DNA of 28,034 nt from a virus. Location: positions 1 to 28,034 of IMG/VR virus record IMGVR_UViG_3300028809_000058. One strand, 5' to 3'. The translations under genes were made by a program, and so were the position numbers. The notes beneath the pieces were generated by a model. It was not told where the DNA came from. It searched no databases and saw only the letters and a list, made by a program, of their open reading frames with translations. The number at the start of each line of letters is the position of its first letter. Within the stretch, counting starts at the first letter, position 1. This document shows, in pieces, positions 4,183 to 24,552 of the stretch.

Positions 4183-4287
4183 GCCAGGGGGGTTGGCTCG
4201 AGCGGTCAGCCCTGCGAGCCGCCGCCCTCACAACATCTCCGGGGCTCCAGCCCGGTGCTCTGATCTCGATTGAGCTACCCCCAGCCG
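4183..4287 (-). other. Gene-free interval with a degenerate tRNA-like 5' half
   Basis: No gene is seen in 4117-4306. On the minus strand, 4284 to 4239 resembles the first half of a tRNA. It has seven bases CTGGGGG, then TA, a D-stem GCTC/GAGC (4275-4272 with 4260-4257), one A, and a five-base-pair stem CCGGG/CCCGG closing the seven-base loop CTGGAGC (4250-4244). The loop would present anticodon GGA (serine). The D-loop lacks the conserved GG, and no canonical T-arm or CCA follows. A C-rich strand near 4183-4195 can pair with the G-run. It may be a remnant, a structured RNA or chance. Confidence 0.25.
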
Positions 4288-5987: not shown

Positions 5988-8006
5988 CTAATCGAGCTCG
6001 TCTTCTTCCCCGTCGTCCTCGTCGGGTTCGTCCTCGGGCGCTTCGCCGGCCTGCACCGCCCGAGCCTTGGCGAGCCCCGCCATGCGCTGCGCGGGCGGGA
6101 CCACCGGGGGCTCGGGCTCGTTGGCCTTCTTCTCCCTGCGAAAGTCGAGCTGCGACTGGATCGCCTTGTCGACCTCGGCCGCGTTGACGGTCGGATAGTT
6201 GTCGATGATTACGAAGCGCGCGGCCTCGGGCGCGAGGTCGTCACCCACACGCGCGATCGTGTCGGCCATCGTCTTGGTCTGGATGCCGTTGCGCGCCTCT
6301 TGTTGCGGTGGCGCTTCTCCGGGCGCGAGCACGGGCTGGCCATCTTGCGTCGTCGCTGGCTGCTCGAGGTCGCCGTCGCCTTCTTTGCCGAACAGGTCGC
6401 CCTCGATGTCCGGGGCCATCGTCTTGTCGAAGCTCGCCACCTTGGCGTCCCGCTCGGAGCGGATGCGCTCGAGTTCGGTCGCGGGGTCGACGTCCAGCTC
6501 CGCGGCGTTGACCGCCAGCGTCACCGCGCTCTCCTGGCTGAGCACCGCCTGGCCGCCCGTGGCGAGCCCGAGCCCCTGCATGAGCGTCAGCAGCTCTTGC
6601 GGGCTCACGCTGTGCAAGCTGGGCCAGGTGAGCGCGAGCGCCTTGCCCGGACCGATCGCGTGCGGTTGGAGTTCGATCGTCGCGCCCTGGCCGGTGTCGT
6701 CTGGATCGCTCGCAACCTCGCGCGGCGGAAGCTCGATCCCCTCACCGTCTTCGCCGACCGCTTTGATGCCGTGCGTGCGCACCATGGCGAGCCAGACTCC
6801 GCCGAGCTGGGTGACGCCCTTGCCGAGCGGCACGCGGCGAGCTCCCGCACGCGTGTCCTGGGTGCGGTACAGCAGCTTGATCGCCAACCCGGAGAGCACG
6901 TTGCCGGCCACCTCGGGGTCGATCGTGATCACGCCGACGCGCACGTCGACCTGCTTGCGAACCTTCTCGAGCGTCAACCAGCTGGTCTCGACGCTCTTGC
7001 CGGCGATCTCGAGCAGGTAGGCGTCGCCGACATCGGAGACCTCGATCAGCTGGCCGTAGCCCTTCTTGCGCGAGGGCCAGCGCGCGAGCATCTGCGGCTT
7101 GTCCTTCACGACCAGGGTCGGGTCGACGTTGGCTGTCGCGCCGCGAGCGATCATCGACTGCAAGCGATCCATGCGGTCGATCTGCTCGAGCACGGGTTCG
7201 CAGTCGGGCTCGCCAAAGGGCGACTCGGTGTCGTGCGTGTTTTGGATCCACACGACCGGGCATCGGCCGGCACCGTGCTCGACCGGCGCGCTGGCCAGCT
7301 CAATCTCGGGCTCGTCGTCTTCGCTGTCGCGCTCGCGATCGACGAGATCCTCGTAGACGTAGACGTGCGTGCGGGTCCACGCGCGCGTGCGCCAGACCGT
7401 GTACTCGTAGACGCAGCCCTGGTCGTCGAGCCCCTCGAGCTTGACCTTGCGCTGCTCGATCACGAGTTCGGGGGTCCAGTCCGCCGAGTCGGCCCACTCG
7501 ATGTACAGGTTCGCGGGGTGCAGCACTCGCAGCGACGGGACCCCCTCGACGACCTCGGGAACGACCGCGGCGGCTCCGACCGAGCCGCAGATCCGACGCG
7601 CCTGCGCGAGCGCAGACCAGGTGTAGCTCGACTCGAACAGCGCGCCGAGCAGCTCGGTCGACGCGTCGTCGCCGATCACCCGGATCGTGGGCGTCCGCCC
7701 CTCGCCGAGCAGCAGTGCGGTGTAGGTGTCGACGACAAGGCCGACCACCATCGTCGGGCAGATCGGGCGGCGGTAGCCGTAGCCCACCGTGTTGACGTCG
7801 CTGGGCTGGTACCGCCCGCGGTCGAGCCTGCTCTCGAGGTAGCTCAGCCCGGGGGTGCGGCGGTACCCGTCCCAGTCGGTATCGAGGTGATCGTTCTGCG
7901 TCTGCCGGTAGTAGGCCTCCAGCTGGTGCAGCTGCCGGACCCGGTGGGTGTCTTCGAGCCGGAGGACTCGCAGGCGTGCCAGGCTGGGTTCGATCTCCTC
8001 GTCCAC
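5988..8006 (-). CDS. Phage portal protein (SPP1 gp6-like)
   Basis: The product is 672 residues, within the usual range for portal proteins. Family-like segments include TMVVGLVVDTYTALLLGEG (about 85-103), LRVLHPANLYIEW (159-171), CPVVWIQNTHD (249-259) with FGEPDCEPVLEQIDRMD (264-280), and ANVDPTLVVKD (292-302). Portal forms the dodecameric ring at the capsid vertex through which DNA is packaged. The C-terminus is a very acidic tail. In most phages large terminase lies directly upstream; here a plus-strand block of about 6.6 kb separates the two. ATG start at 8006. Confidence 0.85.
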   Translation of the reverse strand: MDEEIEPSLARLRVLRLEDTHRVRQLHQLEAYYRQTQNDHLDTDWDGYRRTPGLSYLESRLDRGRYQPSDVNTVGYGYRRPICPTMVVGLVVDTYTALLLGEGRTPTIRVIGDDASTELLGALFESSYTWSALAQARRICGSVGAAAVVPEVVEGVPSLRVLHPANLYIEWADSADWTPELVIEQRKVKLEGLDDQGCVYEYTVWRTRAWTRTHVYVYEDLVDRERDSEDDEPEIELASAPVEHGAGRCPVVWIQNTHDTESPFGEPDCEPVLEQIDRMDRLQSMIARGATANVDPTLVVKDKPQMLARWPSRKKGYGQLIEVSDVGDAYLLEIAGKSVETSWLTLEKVRKQVDVRVGVITIDPEVAGNVLSGLAIKLLYRTQDTRAGARRVPLGKGVTQLGGVWLAMVRTHGIKAVGEDGEGIELPPREVASDPDDTGQGATIELQPHAIGPGKALALTWPSLHSVSPQELLTLMQGLGLATGGQAVLSQESAVTLAVNAAELDVDPATELERIRSERDAKVASFDKTMAPDIEGDLFGKEGDGDLEQPATTQDGQPVLAPGEAPPQQEARNGIQTKTMADTIARVGDDLAPEAARFVIIDNYPTVNAAEVDKAIQSQLDFRREKKANEPEPPVVPPAQRMAGLAKARAVQAGEAPEDEPDEDDGEEDELD

Positions 8007-16269: not shown

Positions 16270-16872
16270 CTATCCAGCGTAGCCCAGCCCGCTGCGCGCG
16301 ATGAAGTCACGTTGACGAGCTGGATCGGCGTAGCTGCCGTAGAAGCTCGTCGTGAGCATCGAGGAGTTGCTCTGCTTCGCGCCGCGGCTGGTCATGCACG
16401 CATGCGTCGCGCGAATGATCACCGCCACGCCGGTCGGCTCGAGCTCGCACCACATCGTCGAGGCGATCTGGTTGGTCAGCCGCTCTTGCAGCTGCAACCG
16501 GCGAGCGTAGGCGTCGACCAGGCGAGCGATCTTCGACAGGCCGCAGACCTTGCCGAGCGGCTCGTAGGCGACGCACGCGGTGCCGGTGATCGGCGCGAAG
16601 TGGTGCTCGCAGTGCGAGTGCACGGCGATCCCCGGCACAAAGACCTCGCCACCACCCGGCAGGCCCGCGTCGAAGCGCGCCTCGAGCAGCTGGGCAGGGT
16701 CGACGCTGTACCCCGAGAACCACTCCGCGAGTGCTCGCTCGACGCGTGCCGGCGTCTCGACCAGCCCCTCGCGGTCGGGGTCGTCGCCCGCCGCTCGGAT
16801 CAGCGTACGCACAGCCTTCTGGACGTTCGAGCGCCGACGCATCAACCGAGGTGCCCTGCTTACCGTGGCCAT
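16270..16872 (-). CDS. folE: GTP cyclohydrolase I
   Basis: The product is 200 residues, near the usual size. Motifs include GDDPDREGLVETPARV (29-44), HSHCEHHFAPITG (85-97) with zinc ligands Cys 88 and His 91, GLSKIARLVDAYARRLQLQE (111-130), and ATHACMTSRG (155-164) with the third zinc ligand Cys 159. It converts GTP to dihydroneopterin triphosphate, the precursor of both folate and preQ0. In phages the gene usually serves 7-deazaguanine synthesis, which fits the DpdA-like gene at 22791. An inner ATG at 16842 is an alternative start. It abuts the terminase start. Confidence 0.93.
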   Translation of the reverse strand: MATVSRAPRLMRRRSNVQKAVRTLIRAAGDDPDREGLVETPARVERALAEWFSGYSVDPAQLLEARFDAGLPGGGEVFVPGIAVHSHCEHHFAPITGTACVAYEPLGKVCGLSKIARLVDAYARRLQLQERLTNQIASTMWCELEPTGVAVIIRATHACMTSRGAKQSNSSMLTTSFYGSYADPARQRDFIARSGLGYAG

Positions 16873-16975
16873 GCAGGGCCAACCACGGCGGGCCCGGCGT
16901 TCTTCCGTGAACACGCGCAAAACGCCGAACACGGGGACCGAGGAATGCGCGAGCAACGAGGATTTTGATCCTCGC
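16873..16975. promoter_or_regulatory. Divergent promoter interval with a perfect hairpin
   Basis: This interval separates folE (minus) from the lipoprotein-like gene at 16976 (plus), so two promoters are expected. It contains CGAGGAT-TTTG-ATCCTCG (16957-16974), a perfect seven-base-pair stem with a four-base loop, ending one base before the ATG. GAGG inside the left arm would be the nearest ribosome binding sequence and would be hidden when the stem forms. It may be a translational switch or an operator. Confidence 0.45.
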
Positions 16976-17401
16976 ATGAAACCACGCAGCACCATCGTCG
17001 CCGCCATCCTCGCCGTCTGCTCGCCCTCGCTGCCGCCGGATCAGGTTGCCCCCCGCGCGCGCGTAAAGCCTGGCCCCGAGCGCGATGTCCCGCCGCTCAT
17101 CACCTCCATCTGCGTGCCCGACCCTAACCTTGCCGAGCCGATCGGGTACGGGGACATCGGCGGCCCAGACCTCGATCGCATCGACTGCGGCGACGATCTC
17201 GTGCAGCCGTGCGAGCGCTTCGCCGAATGCCCCGAGGTCGTCGACCCATCCGCGCCGCGACTGTGCGCCTGCGTGTGCCGGGACAACCTCGACTGCGAAG
17301 GGCCGCTGGTGCCGATGCGCGGCTGGTATCCGACCGTGCTCGACGGCTGGACCAGCGTGTGCGAGGTCGGCCGCTGCGTGTGGACGGCCCTGAGCCGCTA
17401 G
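16976..17401 (+). CDS. Secreted or lipoprotein-like cysteine-rich protein
   Basis: The product is 141 residues. The N-terminus MKPRSTIVAAILAVCSPS is a short signal peptide with Cys 15 in an imperfect lipobox (Leu-Ala-Val-Cys), so lipidation is possible but not certain. The rest is Pro- and Asp-rich with many cysteines, including LCACVCRDNLDCEGPL. I do not recognise a family; the style resembles small exported proteins of myxobacteria. The gene stands alone against the surrounding minus-strand morphogenesis genes, and its stop overlaps the small-terminase candidate by four bases. It may be a moron expressed from its own promoter. Confidence 0.65.
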   Translation: MKPRSTIVAAILAVCSPSLPPDQVAPRARVKPGPERDVPPLITSICVPDPNLAEPIGYGDIGGPDLDRIDCGDDLVQPCERFAECPEVVDPSAPRLCACVCRDNLDCEGPLVPMRGWYPTVLDGWTSVCEVGRCVWTALSR

Positions 17402-20137: not shown

Positions 20138-20189
20138 CCGCTTGCTCCGAGCACAGATAGGCGCCGCTCGACGCGGCGAAGGAAGAACG

Positions 20190-21212
20190 ATGACACGAAC
20201 ACGAACAGCATTAGCAATCACCGCTCTCCTGCTCGCGACGGCCGCGTGCACGAAAGAGGAGATCTGTTTTCCATGGTACCAGAAATGTCCCGGAGAGGAG
20301 ACGGGCGACACCGGTGAGAGCGAGCCCGAATACTCGTGCTTCGACAACGGCGGACTCGAGCACAGCTGGTGCGTCGAGGACATCAGCGCGCTCGAACGTC
20401 AGGCCGTCTCGGCCGTGCTCGCGGTTGCGCCTGGACCTTGGGGCACCGCCGACTTCGACACGTGGGATCCCTTGCGCGAGTGCTTGACCCCGCTGGTCGA
20501 GCACGAGTGCGTGATGTCGGTGCTCAACGTGTCGAAAAAGTGCACCGTCTGCTGGACCGAGGAGGGCACGCCCGACTGGCAGGCCGCCACACTCACCGGG
20601 CCGGTTGCCGTGGTCGAGTGGGTCGAGAACGGCGAGGTCGTCCGCTTCTTTGATCACCTCGGCTGGTACGACGCGACGATGACCGACGCCGGCTTGGACG
20701 AGGAGAGCGCGGTGTGTCAGAAGGTGCGGACGCACGGCGTGCGGACCGGAGCGGAGTGCTTGTGCACAGCCGACAATCAGTGTCCGCAGCTGCTCGGCGA
20801 GGGCATCTGCGAGCAGGGCGTGTGCATCTACACCAACATCCCCGACGCGAGCCCGACTCTCGAGCCTGGTCCGCACCTGTACGGGCTGTCGCAGTGGTCC
20901 GACGGGCTCTCGTGCACGGGCAACACCTGCACGCTGACGTCGACGCTGATCGGCAACCTCCACGTGCTCGTCACCTGGTGGGATGACGAAGTCGAGTGGT
21001 CGGTCAACCCGACGACCGGGTACATCACGATCGACTCGCTGCACGGCGACTCGCTGCCGTACCAGCTTGGTCTTCGGCAAGGCGACGTAATCACGGCGAT
21101 CAACGGCCAGGCACCGACCGCCTCGACGGTCAACAACGCGATCGACACGCTGCTGCGCAGCGACACAGTCGCGGTCGCGCTCACGAACCGCACGATCATC
21201 CTGACGATGTAG
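20190..21212 (+). CDS. Lipoprotein with C-terminal PDZ domain
   Basis: The product is 340 residues. The signal peptide ends in a classic lipobox (LLLATAAC, Cys 20). A Glu/Thr/Gly-rich linker follows, then a long Cys-containing domain. The last 78 residues form a PDZ-like domain with SLPYQLGLRQGDVITAINGQ and a final strand pair. The combination of GLxxGDVI and INGQ resembles the GspC-type PDZ domains that Myxococcota use in exported proteins. AAGGA lies about seven bases before the ATG. It is an unusual phage gene and may act as a lysogenic-conversion or surface-exclusion protein. Confidence 0.8.
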   Translation: MTRTRTALAITALLLATAACTKEEICFPWYQKCPGEETGDTGESEPEYSCFDNGGLEHSWCVEDISALERQAVSAVLAVAPGPWGTADFDTWDPLRECLTPLVEHECVMSVLNVSKKCTVCWTEEGTPDWQAATLTGPVAVVEWVENGEVVRFFDHLGWYDATMTDAGLDEESAVCQKVRTHGVRTGAECLCTADNQCPQLLGEGICEQGVCIYTNIPDASPTLEPGPHLYGLSQWSDGLSCTGNTCTLTSTLIGNLHVLVTWWDDEVEWSVNPTTGYITIDSLHGDSLPYQLGLRQGDVITAINGQAPTASTVNNAIDTLLRSDTVAVALTNRTIILTM

Positions 21213-22790: not shown

Positions 22791-23897
22791 TCACTCCCGC
22801 TGGCCCAGCGCCAGCTCGAACGCTCGTGTGTGGCTAGCCAGCCTCGCGTGCCGGCGCCGGTTGCCGGTCACCGGCGTCTCGTCGCCATCGCAGGCCCTCG
22901 CCATCTTGGTCGCGTTCACGGCGAACATCGTGACGGCGCGACCATCGATGCTCGTTGCCCCGAGCTCGCCGCACAGCTTCGCCCGTCGCTCGCCGTTGAC
23001 CCGACCGACGTGGACCCGCAGGCCCAGCTCGAGCCCGAGCGCTGTCCACCAATGCAGCGACTTCCACTTCCAGTTGGGTGTGTCCTTCCCCGCGCTGCCG
23101 CCCACGAAGATCACCGAGCAGCCGATCTCGCGCAGGACCGGCCGCACCATGTCGGGCGTCATGCCGTCCTGTACCGCCAGCGCGAGGTTGATCCCGCGCA
23201 GCTCGCCGCGGTGTCGCGCGTGGAAGTCGACCGAGAAGTCGAGGCTGCGCTGGCCCGCGCCGACGATGTCCGGCAGCACCGCCCAGCCCTCGCCAAGCCC
23301 TGGGCCCAGGCGCTCGAGCAGGCGCAGGAACGGGTCCGGCTCCCACGGCTTGCCGGCCTGGCTGCAAGGCCACGCGCCGTTGTCGAGCACGTAGGGCAGG
23401 CCCTCGACCGGCTGCGTGTGGCCGCTGAGGTCGTTGACCTTGTACCCGCAGTGGGTCTTGCGGACCGAGATCGGCGACAGCAGCGAGCCGAACCCGTGCC
23501 GCTTGCAGGCCTCGACGGTGCGCGCGTTGGTCGGCCGCACGACGTACAGGCGCAGGTCCGCCGCGCGCGGTCGCCGGGTCAGGCGACGCGGGATTGCCAC
23601 GTCTGCGGCGGTCAACACGTGGTGGTCTCGACGGACCGTGAAGCCGAGCCGTACCAGGACACGCGAGGCGTGCTCCAGGCCGCCCGAGAGCTCGCGCGCG
23701 GCCATCGGCCGGCCGCCGCTCTGGTAGGCGCTGGCGACCGCCACAATCGCCTTGGGCGGCAGCTGGAGACCGCCGACCTCGAGCACGTCGCGGGTCCCGT
23801 GGCGGAAGCCGTGCGCGCGCAGGAACACCTCGGGCCCGGACCGCGCGGCCTCGGCAACCGCGTGAAGCACGGCGCGGCGATCGAGCGTGGCGATCAT
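22791..23897 (-). CDS. DpdA-like DNA transglycosylase with ScoMcrA-type N-terminal domain
   Basis: The product is 368 residues, ATG in an ATGA overlap. The C-terminal two-thirds (about 115-330) resemble TGT/DpdA enzymes: LPYVLDNGAW (167-176), WAVLPDIVGAGQRSLD (205-220), INLALAVQDG (236-245), VIFVGGSAGKDTPNWK (262-277), and VHVGRVNGERRAKLCGELG (295-313). DpdA swaps guanine in DNA for preQ0. The N-terminal 95 residues (FLRAHGFRHGTRDVLEVG, LPPKAIVAVASAY, LSGGLEHASRVLVRLGFTV) resemble the head domain of ScoMcrA-type modification-dependent endonucleases. That fusion is unusual. Together with folE it points to 7-deazaguanine modification of phage DNA. The reaction itself is inferred. Confidence 0.75.
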   Translation of the reverse strand: MIATLDRRAVLHAVAEAARSGPEVFLRAHGFRHGTRDVLEVGGLQLPPKAIVAVASAYQSGGRPMAARELSGGLEHASRVLVRLGFTVRRDHHVLTAADVAIPRRLTRRPRAADLRLYVVRPTNARTVEACKRHGFGSLLSPISVRKTHCGYKVNDLSGHTQPVEGLPYVLDNGAWPCSQAGKPWEPDPFLRLLERLGPGLGEGWAVLPDIVGAGQRSLDFSVDFHARHRGELRGINLALAVQDGMTPDMVRPVLREIGCSVIFVGGSAGKDTPNWKWKSLHWWTALGLELGLRVHVGRVNGERRAKLCGELGATSIDGRAVTMFAVNATKMARACDGDETPVTGNRRRHARLASHTRAFELALGQRE

Positions 23898-24148
23898 CGA
23901 TCCTCCCAGCGCACCGAGTCGCTCGGCACCGCGCGATTGCTCAGCGGGCACGGCTCGCCGTCGGGCTTGTTGTGCGCGTAGTAGTAGTCGAGCGTGCCGT
24001 CGCCGCCCTTGGGGTTGTAGACGCCCACCTCGCGACCGCACTCGGGGTGCTCGCACACGCGCCTGGTCGGCGGTGGCTTCGGCACGCCGTGCTTCGCCAT
24101 GAAGCGCTTGGCCCGTTCGTAGTCGCGCTGCCGGCCTTGCTTCCGCAT
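23894..24148 (-). CDS. Small probable zinc-binding protein
   Basis: The product is 84 residues. A basic N-terminus (RKQGRQRDYERAKRF) is followed by VCEHPECGREVGVYNPKGGD, then a Tyr-rich stretch with a His and GEPCPLSNRAV. The cysteine/histidine arrangement (C-x4-C, then H and C about 25 residues on) could bind one zinc. The gene overlaps both neighbours (TGATG and ATGA), directly before the DpdA-like gene, so it may be its partner. No family is recognised. Confidence 0.65.
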   Translation of the reverse strand: MRKQGRQRDYERAKRFMAKHGVPKPPPTRRVCEHPECGREVGVYNPKGGDGTLDYYYAHNKPDGEPCPLSNRAVPSDSVRWEDR

Positions 24149-24552
24149 CACGACCACCCCTCGGCCGGCCAGTAGCAGAACGACTGCGGCGGGTTGAAGA
24201 CGCACCCGCTGTTCTTGGCGAGCGCGCGCGGGTCGATCGCGTGCTCGAAGCGGAGCGGCTCGAACACCTCGAACGCGTGCGCGAGCTGCTTGCCGTGGAA
24301 GTAGCGATCGAACTCGGCGCGCGTGATCCCGGCGAACTCGGCAGTGTCAGCCCAGAGCTCGGCCGGCTCGTCGCTCAGCACGCGCGCGACCTCGAACTCG
24401 CCGACGATCCGCAGCACCGGCGCGGTCGCGTACAGCGACACCCAACGCGGTGGCCGGGCGGGCACGACCCGGCGGAACTCGAACAGCTTGGTGCCCGCGA
24501 GGATCGCCTCGGCGTGCCGCGGATGGACGCTGAGCAAGATTCGATTACGCAC
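24148..24552 (-). CDS. ASCH/PUA-like domain protein
   Basis: The product is 134 residues, GTG start. It shows the ASCH pattern: LLSVHPRHAEAILAGTKLFE (6-25), then WVSLYATAPVLRIVGEFEVA (37-56) and a C-terminal part with FEHAIDPRAL and PPQSFCYW. ASCH and related EVE/PUA domains form a beta barrel that can bind RNA or modified bases. Beside a DpdA-like gene, sensing or handling of modified nucleotides is an attractive idea but not shown. The start overlaps the previous TAA by eight bases. Confidence 0.8.
   Translation of the reverse strand: MRNRILLSVHPRHAEAILAGTKLFEFRRVVPARPPRWVSLYATAPVLRIVGEFEVARVLSDEPAELWADTAEFAGITRAEFDRYFHGKQLAHAFEVFEPLRFEHAIDPRALAKNSGCVFNPPQSFCYWPAEGWS

Follow-up and report, generated by a model that had tools for sequence, protein, structure and literature searches.

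A ScoMcrA-type head domain joined to a DpdA-like transglycosylase barrel in phage proteins

Introduction

Why would a phage join an enzyme of the base-exchange kind to a module otherwise found in enzymes that attack modified DNA? The question is raised by one gene in a 28,034-base metagenomic phage record (hereafter the window, meaning that whole stretch). The initial annotation, made from sequence alone, read this gene as a DpdA-like transglycosylase fused to a ScoMcrA-type head domain, suggested that the head might sense DNA context or modification, and knew of no described example. Here we examine each half of the protein, the recurrence of the pairing, and the explanations that could account for it.

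Gene organization and start of the fusion

Besides several DNA methyltransferase genes, the window contains genes for a portal protein and the large terminase and a RecT-region gene; it is likely a fragment. The open reading frame, its coordinates, and its motifs held as first annotated. Its features are as follows.

22791..23897, minus strand: head-TGT (tRNA-guanine transglycosylase) fusion gene, a single open frame of 368 aa plus stop, with a homologous fusion in a second record (L007)
23894..23897, minus strand: ATGA, in which the start codon overlaps the stop of the small gene upstream (23894-24205)
23613..23897, minus strand: head domain, residues 1-95, ScoMcrA-type by 5ZMM sequence match, PADLOC mREase_IV, and fold match
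23559..23612, minus strand: linker, residues 96-113, basic (pI 12) and of low confidence (pLDDT <50 at residues 102-113)
22884..23558, minus strand: minimal TGT-type (beta/alpha)8 barrel, residues 114-338, of family phrog_15826 ("T1"), by phrog_15826 match and fold
22794..22883, minus strand: C-terminal tail, residues 339-368, basic and of low confidence (pLDDT <50)

A ribosome-binding site, GGGAGGA at 23907-23901, precedes the ATG of the fusion gene (23897-23895). The start of the L007 fusion is likewise ATGA-coupled (7674-7677). As this coupled start is common to both fusions, the head truly opens the protein.

Two other genes in the window were observed. A small ASCH-like gene (phrog_3136; 24148-24552, minus strand) lies three genes upstream of the fusion and has homologues in the L007 (L007:16150-16572) and L008 (L008:13661-14425) records. 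ASCH domains are related to base readers of the EVE/PUA type. An open reading frame at 20142-21212 (plus strand, opposite to the main gene set) encodes a signal-peptide, lipoprotein-like product with a weak PDZ match, and has the look of host-derived cargo.

Identity of the head domain

Neither half of the fusion has a model in Pfam or NCBIfam. Direct comparisons were more informative for the N-terminal part, which is a ScoMcrA-type head domain. Residues 5-90 match PDB 5ZMM (ScoMcrA; phmmer, E=5.8e-10) and residues 5-95 match PADLOC mREase_IV (PDLC03662; E=6.1e-11), while a profile built on 22 head sequences (window plus fetched loci) retrieved 5ZMM from the PDB at 1.6e-23 with no other significant match. 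When modelled by itself with AlphaFold (pLDDT 91), the head superimposed on that of 5zmm_B with Z=10.8 and an rmsd of 1.9 A over 72 aligned residues. No clear relative besides 5ZMM emerged from this fold search, in which the next entry had Z=2.4, nor was any aromatic-cage or SRA/EVE-like fold match found. The proposed relation of the N-terminal module to McrA (ScoMcrA), for which the initial annotation had itself set a test, was upheld for residues 1-95 by both sequence and fold.

The ScoMcrA head is described as small, flexibly attached, and of unknown function; the dimer contacts of that enzyme come from its other three domains, and the head makes none (PMC6224610). Residues 5-93 of the fusion are 33-38% identical to it with a like fold, and both heads are N-terminal and flexibly attached. 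The proteins differ in what follows: SBD, SRA, and HNH domains in ScoMcrA, but a TGT barrel in the window fusion. No nuclease domain (HNH or PD-(D/E)XK) was found in the fusion chain by Pfam, PHROGs, or NCBIfam. The protein fails the nuclease criterion for a type IV restriction endonuclease, the rest of the chain being the TGT barrel.

Fold and catalytic residues of the barrel

Residues 145-337 match phrog_15826 (E=2.5e-25), to which no function is assigned. The T1 family sequence profile found nothing in the PDB, and the TGT assignment therefore stands on fold and motifs. In an AlphaFold model of the whole fusion, mean pLDDT was 82, exceeding 90 in the barrel core. All 50 of the top 50 PDB entries retrieved with this model were TGTs (Z 14.9-15.4; 217-239 residues aligned), and Foldseek matched it to the TGT fold at 2.6e-5. 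The C-terminal part of the fusion, as predicted by the model, has a TGT fold; the alternative of a non-TGT fold was not borne out by the structure model or the PDB fold search. For the head and the barrel alike, the matches lie well outside what chance would give.

Across 62 T1 relatives (alignment A4), D172, D210, Q243, G266, G267, H296, and D318 are invariant. Residues of the fusion and of E. coli TGT were paired by motif order and similar spacing, without coordinate superposition, to give the following correspondences.

23382..23384, minus strand: D172 (LDNGAW), invariant, opposite E. coli TGT D89 by motif order
23268..23270, minus strand: D210 (LPDIVG), invariant, opposite E. coli TGT D143 by motif order
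23169..23171, minus strand: Q243 (AVQDG), invariant, opposite E. coli TGT Q187 by motif order
23097..23102, minus strand: G266-G267 (FVGGS), invariant, opposite E. coli TGT G213-G214 by motif order
22944..22946, minus strand: D318 (SIDG), invariant, opposite the E. coli TGT nucleophile D264 by motif order

The counterpart of D318, TGT D264, is known to act as the nucleophile. The CxCxxC zinc motif is present in E. coli TGT, but was absent from the window protein, 66 T1 sequences, 73 sequences of a second family (T2, described below), and phage 9g DpdA. The fusion is without the zinc/tRNA subdomain by which TGT holds tRNA. Bacterial and eukaryotic TGTs thus have the fold and catalytic residues in common with the fusion barrel, but differ in having a zinc site and no head, whereas the fusion has a head, no zinc site, and a phage context of DNA metabolism.

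Relation to DpdA and to phage relatives

A single-sequence search of viral contigs with the window protein returned nothing, and alignments were needed to find its relatives. These led to 387 viral stretches with T1 relatives, 80 of which were read. The phrog_15826 proteins of Erythrobacter phage R6L (gp10), Rhodococcus phage ReqiPine5 (gp03), and Arthrobacter phage Aoka (gp40) belong to the same T1 catalytic family; together with that of phage ZS04, they are about 210 aa and headless, compared with 368 aa for the fusion. Among the nearest annotated phage relatives, only Aoka gp40 carries a name, "DpdA-like tRNA-guanine transglycosylase".

Profile comparison (hhalign) tied T1 only weakly to 9g-type DpdA (E=3.7e-5, probability 44%). 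For the DpdA2 protein of Vibrio phage nt-1 it gave no relation (E=0.48 across 26 columns). The latter comparison used a single-sequence target, so that a merely distant relation could be missed. Against the single E. coli TGT sequence, hhalign gave no useful result for T1 or T2, nor even for true DpdA. Given the weak tie to 9g and the lack of one to nt-1 DpdA2, the label "DpdA-like" from the initial annotation held, whereas identification as a DpdA is not supported.

T1 proteins have the TGT fold, the absence of a zinc site, and the D-H-D motif order in common with 9g DpdA and the bacterial Dpd islands, the histidine of this order being H196 within KVHGFG in 9g DpdA and H296 within VHVGRVN in the fusion. 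They differ in that the 9g barrel spans 317 residues without a head, compared with about 225 plus the head. The nt-1 DpdA2 protein, a phage member of the TGT superfamily encoded with preQ0 genes, is 464 aa and likewise has no head. Its published description gives it no histidine equivalent to 9g H196 (PMC6884629). We observed that nt-1 DpdA2 (L218:15913-17307) contains VHMLGFG, very like KVHGFG of 9g; the His motif alone therefore does not discriminate DpdA.

Recurrence of the head-TGT pairing

The same fusion was found in L007, a 97.5-kb record from another sample, with 58% identity over 370 residues. In the sister record L006 the head is missing its first half, and in L008 it is lost altogether; no head was seen at the other T1 loci examined.

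A search of viral contigs using the head only, blind to whatever lay downstream, gave 17 loci. Besides T1 loci, these comprised eight heads joined to an HNH nuclease, four fused to another protein that bears TGT motifs (DSGAF, APDQVG, QKG, HLLGLG, DSCW), two stand-alone heads (L090, L092) each followed by a TGT gene of this second kind through an ATGA overlap (4234-4237 in both), and one stand-alone head beside a DNA methyltransferase (L094). In L094, the head gene (521-781) lies just upstream of an N4/N6-type DNA methyltransferase (918-2558) and a possible nuclease gene, an arrangement that might be that of a restriction-modification system subunit.

We assign the other TGT-motif protein to a second, distantly related TGT family, T2, on the basis of motifs and profile links and without a structure model. 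Profile comparison shows homology between T2 and T1 (hhalign, probability 98%, E=8e-14), as well as a link of T2 to 9g DpdA (E=2e-6). Within a T2 survey of 80 loci, nine distinct sequences carry head fusions (L089, L096, L101, L103, L107, L108, L109, L112, and L113); beyond these and the two split pairs, the rest are headless. A PADLOC model independent of our profiles detects the head in L101, L103, L090, and L007. Searching phage records with the T2 protein of L101 returned nothing, and T2 fusions are therefore known here only from metagenomes. Matches to T2 in bacterial genomes had no head. As both TGT families carry the pairing and it occurs also as neighbouring genes, it is probably meaningful.

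T2 TGT domains were also observed inside polyvalent phage proteins of more than 1,900 residues (L129, L148, L151, L158, L160, L163, and others). A TGT of this kind is not listed in the 2017 survey of polyvalent proteins.

Origins of the pairing

A tree of 70 barrels separated T1 from T2 (100/100). The head-bearing T1 proteins and L008 formed one clade (100/100), and the head-bearing T2 proteins fell within T2. A single clade of all head-bearing TGTs was rejected (p-AU 2.4e-5), which implies that head and TGT came together twice or more, or else once with very many later losses. In the head tree, nuclease heads formed a supported cluster (98/98) with all TGT-linked heads outside it. A clade of T1 and T2 heads apart from nuclease heads received 90/98 in a small tree, and we do not claim it: once bacterial heads were added, neither this clade (p-AU 0.17) nor placement of T1 heads with nuclease heads (0.22) could be rejected.

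No heads on TGTs were found among 195 bacterial genomes from the phylum of a Myxococcales MAG; in these same genomes, heads occurred on nuclease-like and McrB-like proteins. Two such architectures from Myxococcota are unnamed by Pfam: in L207-L212 the head is N-terminal to a part that resembles PD-(D/E)XK nucleases, whereas L214 has a head-like domain followed by the start of an McrB-like ATPase.

PreQ0 genes near T1 and T2 loci

Genes for preQ0 synthesis adjoin headless T1 members. Of 14 sampled T1 records, 7 carry queD (PF01242) downstream of the TGT gene, at a distance of 9-248 bp. Using 9g-derived profiles on 65 non-redundant T1 loci, a queC-like gene was found at most 350 bp from the TGT gene in at least 13, and within 3 kb queE was found in at least three and folE in at least one. 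These counts are lower bounds, because the queD genes detected with Pfam escaped the 9g queD profile. The comparison figure for preQ0-gene neighbours in T2 is 2 of 72 loci.

Within the window itself, one such gene is present.

16270..17007, minus strand: FolE (GTP cyclohydrolase I; PF01227, 5.4e-60), adjoining the large terminase gene

FolE is the first enzyme of preQ0 synthesis and also of folate synthesis. It was found in the window only, the three sister records having none. Neither queC nor queD was found in the window or in the three sister records (81-98 kb), all of which may be fragments. Compared with the 9g DpdA and Dpd type, family members do lie near preQ0 genes, but queC and queD were not found in any head-bearing T1 or T2 record searched. 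The base may therefore be supplied by the host, or be a different one.

The preQ0 genes beside headless T1 members, the TGT fold, and the catalytic residues together make deazaguanine base exchange the most likely activity, and a DpdA-like function is proposed on these same grounds. We consider it likely that the T1 barrel exchanges bases in DNA, although this activity is inferred from fold, residues, and the neighbourhood of relatives.

Genes for PAPS-reductase-like PP-loop proteins were seen adjoining the T1 TGT genes of R6L (L002:7517-8560) and ReqiPine5 (L004:6757-7674). In L129 (2337-8075), a T2 TGT, an ART-PolyVal domain, and a PAPS_reduct domain occur in one protein of 1,913 residues. 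Conceivably, PAPS-reductase-like proteins near TGTs stand in for QueC.

Proposed mechanism

We favor, with a probability of roughly 0.6, the reading that the fusion is a DpdA-type phage enzyme that exchanges bases in DNA, with a ScoMcrA-type head in front of a minimal TGT barrel; its activity is inferred. In this model, the mobile head on its basic linker would tether the small barrel to duplex DNA, and in the split form (L090, L092) the head would act as a TGT subunit. D318 would attack C1' of deoxyguanosine, and guanine would leave a pocket formed by D172, D210, Q243, and G266-G267, its position being filled by a 7-deazaguanine such as preQ0 or one of its derivatives. The host would supply this base, as the window and its longer sisters are without queC and queD, and the FolE of the window may raise its supply. 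The predicted outcome is modified, restriction-resistant phage DNA.

A role of the head in docking to DNA is likely, but is inferred; the literature searched held no evidence of DNA binding. Nuclease heads accompany separate readers, namely EVE in L093 and SBD plus SRA in ScoMcrA (PMC6224610). Since the same head sits beside different recognition modules, general docking fits better than a specific sensor, and the flexible attachment and unknown function of the ScoMcrA head suit a tethered docking module. Bacterial DpdA has a partner protein, DpdB (PMC12839542), and by analogy minimal barrels of about 225 residues may need a DNA-docking partner. The net charge of TGT-linked heads ranges from +8 to -7, so that strong electrostatic binding of DNA is not a common property. 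Other points that weigh against our reading are the pairing of catalytic residues by motif order alone, the weak profile tie to characterised DpdA, and the absence of queC and queD from the head-bearing records searched. So does Mycobacterium phage Orion, which has dpdA and no preQ0 genes, and in whose DNA no 7-deazaguanine was detected (PMC6884629).

Alternative explanations

The strongest alternative is that the head is a sensor of modification or sequence (methylation, phosphorothioate) which steers exchange to or from marked DNA, making the fusion a reader-writer. This is possible, and sensing is untested. In its favor, the same head occurs in modification-dependent restriction enzymes, TGT-linked heads fall outside the nuclease-head cluster (98/98) as if specialised, and both the window phage and relatives of it encode several DNA methyltransferases. 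Against it, nuclease heads sit with separate recognition domains (EVE in L093; SBD and SRA in ScoMcrA) to which sensing is already assigned, and the head is without an aromatic-cage or SRA/EVE-like fold match. In a bolder form, head-TGTs might constitute a distinct, repeatedly assembled class of reader-writers, in which the head, a part borrowed from defence enzymes, reads context or modification and steers the swap, with fusions in both TGT families and a coupled gene pair as its known forms. The suggestion of sensing in the initial annotation is neither shown nor excluded; the docking reading, itself inferred, fits better.

Less plausible, and in our view unlikely, is that the head serves counter-defence, either as a protein-interaction or decoy module against head-bearing restriction enzymes of the host, or by recruiting a phage protein. 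Host nucleases often have such a head N-terminally (bacterial loci L207-L212), and stand-alone heads exist in phages (L090, L092, L094). However, the ScoMcrA head makes no dimer contact (PMC6224610), and the L090 and L092 heads are translationally coupled to the TGT gene, which points to a partner in cis.

It is also improbable that the TGT part acts not on DNA but in tRNA exchange, or in nucleobase-protein conjugation as in type IV CBASS. QueC-like and TGT-like proteins are known to co-occur in type IV CBASS. At several headless T1 loci, the only preQ0 gene detected in the vicinity is a queC-like one adjoining the TGT gene, and protein conjugation is a role for which members of the QueC family have been co-opted (PMC13329287, PMC13279940). 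Yet queD, queE, and folE also neighbour T1 genes, which indicates base synthesis; no CBASS component was seen in the window, and the zinc/tRNA subdomain is missing; and the T1 records belong to phages that encode several DNA methyltransferases.

From a single metagenomic contig, with half a head in L006 and none in L008, one could suspect a degenerate gene or an artefact of assembly or annotation, but this is all but excluded by the intact, 58%-identical L007 fusion from another sample with the same ATGA start, and by the nine further head-TGT fusions in T2.

Novelty and implications

We found no description of a head-TGT union in the literature searched, which left out a 2023 paper on additional phage 7-deazaguanines (NAR gkad657; PMC10516641) and a 2023 Dpd structure paper (PMC10164549); within these bounds, the claim of no described example held. 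Both domains were known separately. What is new, within the same literature, is that they are joined, in each of two TGT families, and are also encoded by paired genes.

Since its structure appeared in 2018, the ScoMcrA head has had no assigned function. Its link to TGTs separates the head from nucleases and makes its role testable. Head-TGT proteins also widen the architectures of phage deazaguanine enzymes. In our preferred reading of the fusion as a base-exchange enzyme, one small module would serve both the attack on modified DNA and the making of it.

A further observation concerns the L007 record, where a cytosine-C5 DNA methyltransferase (PF00145; L007:2615-5506) is apparently interrupted right after its catalytic PPC motif by an intein-like stretch containing a LAGLIDADG domain (PF14528, E=5e-8).
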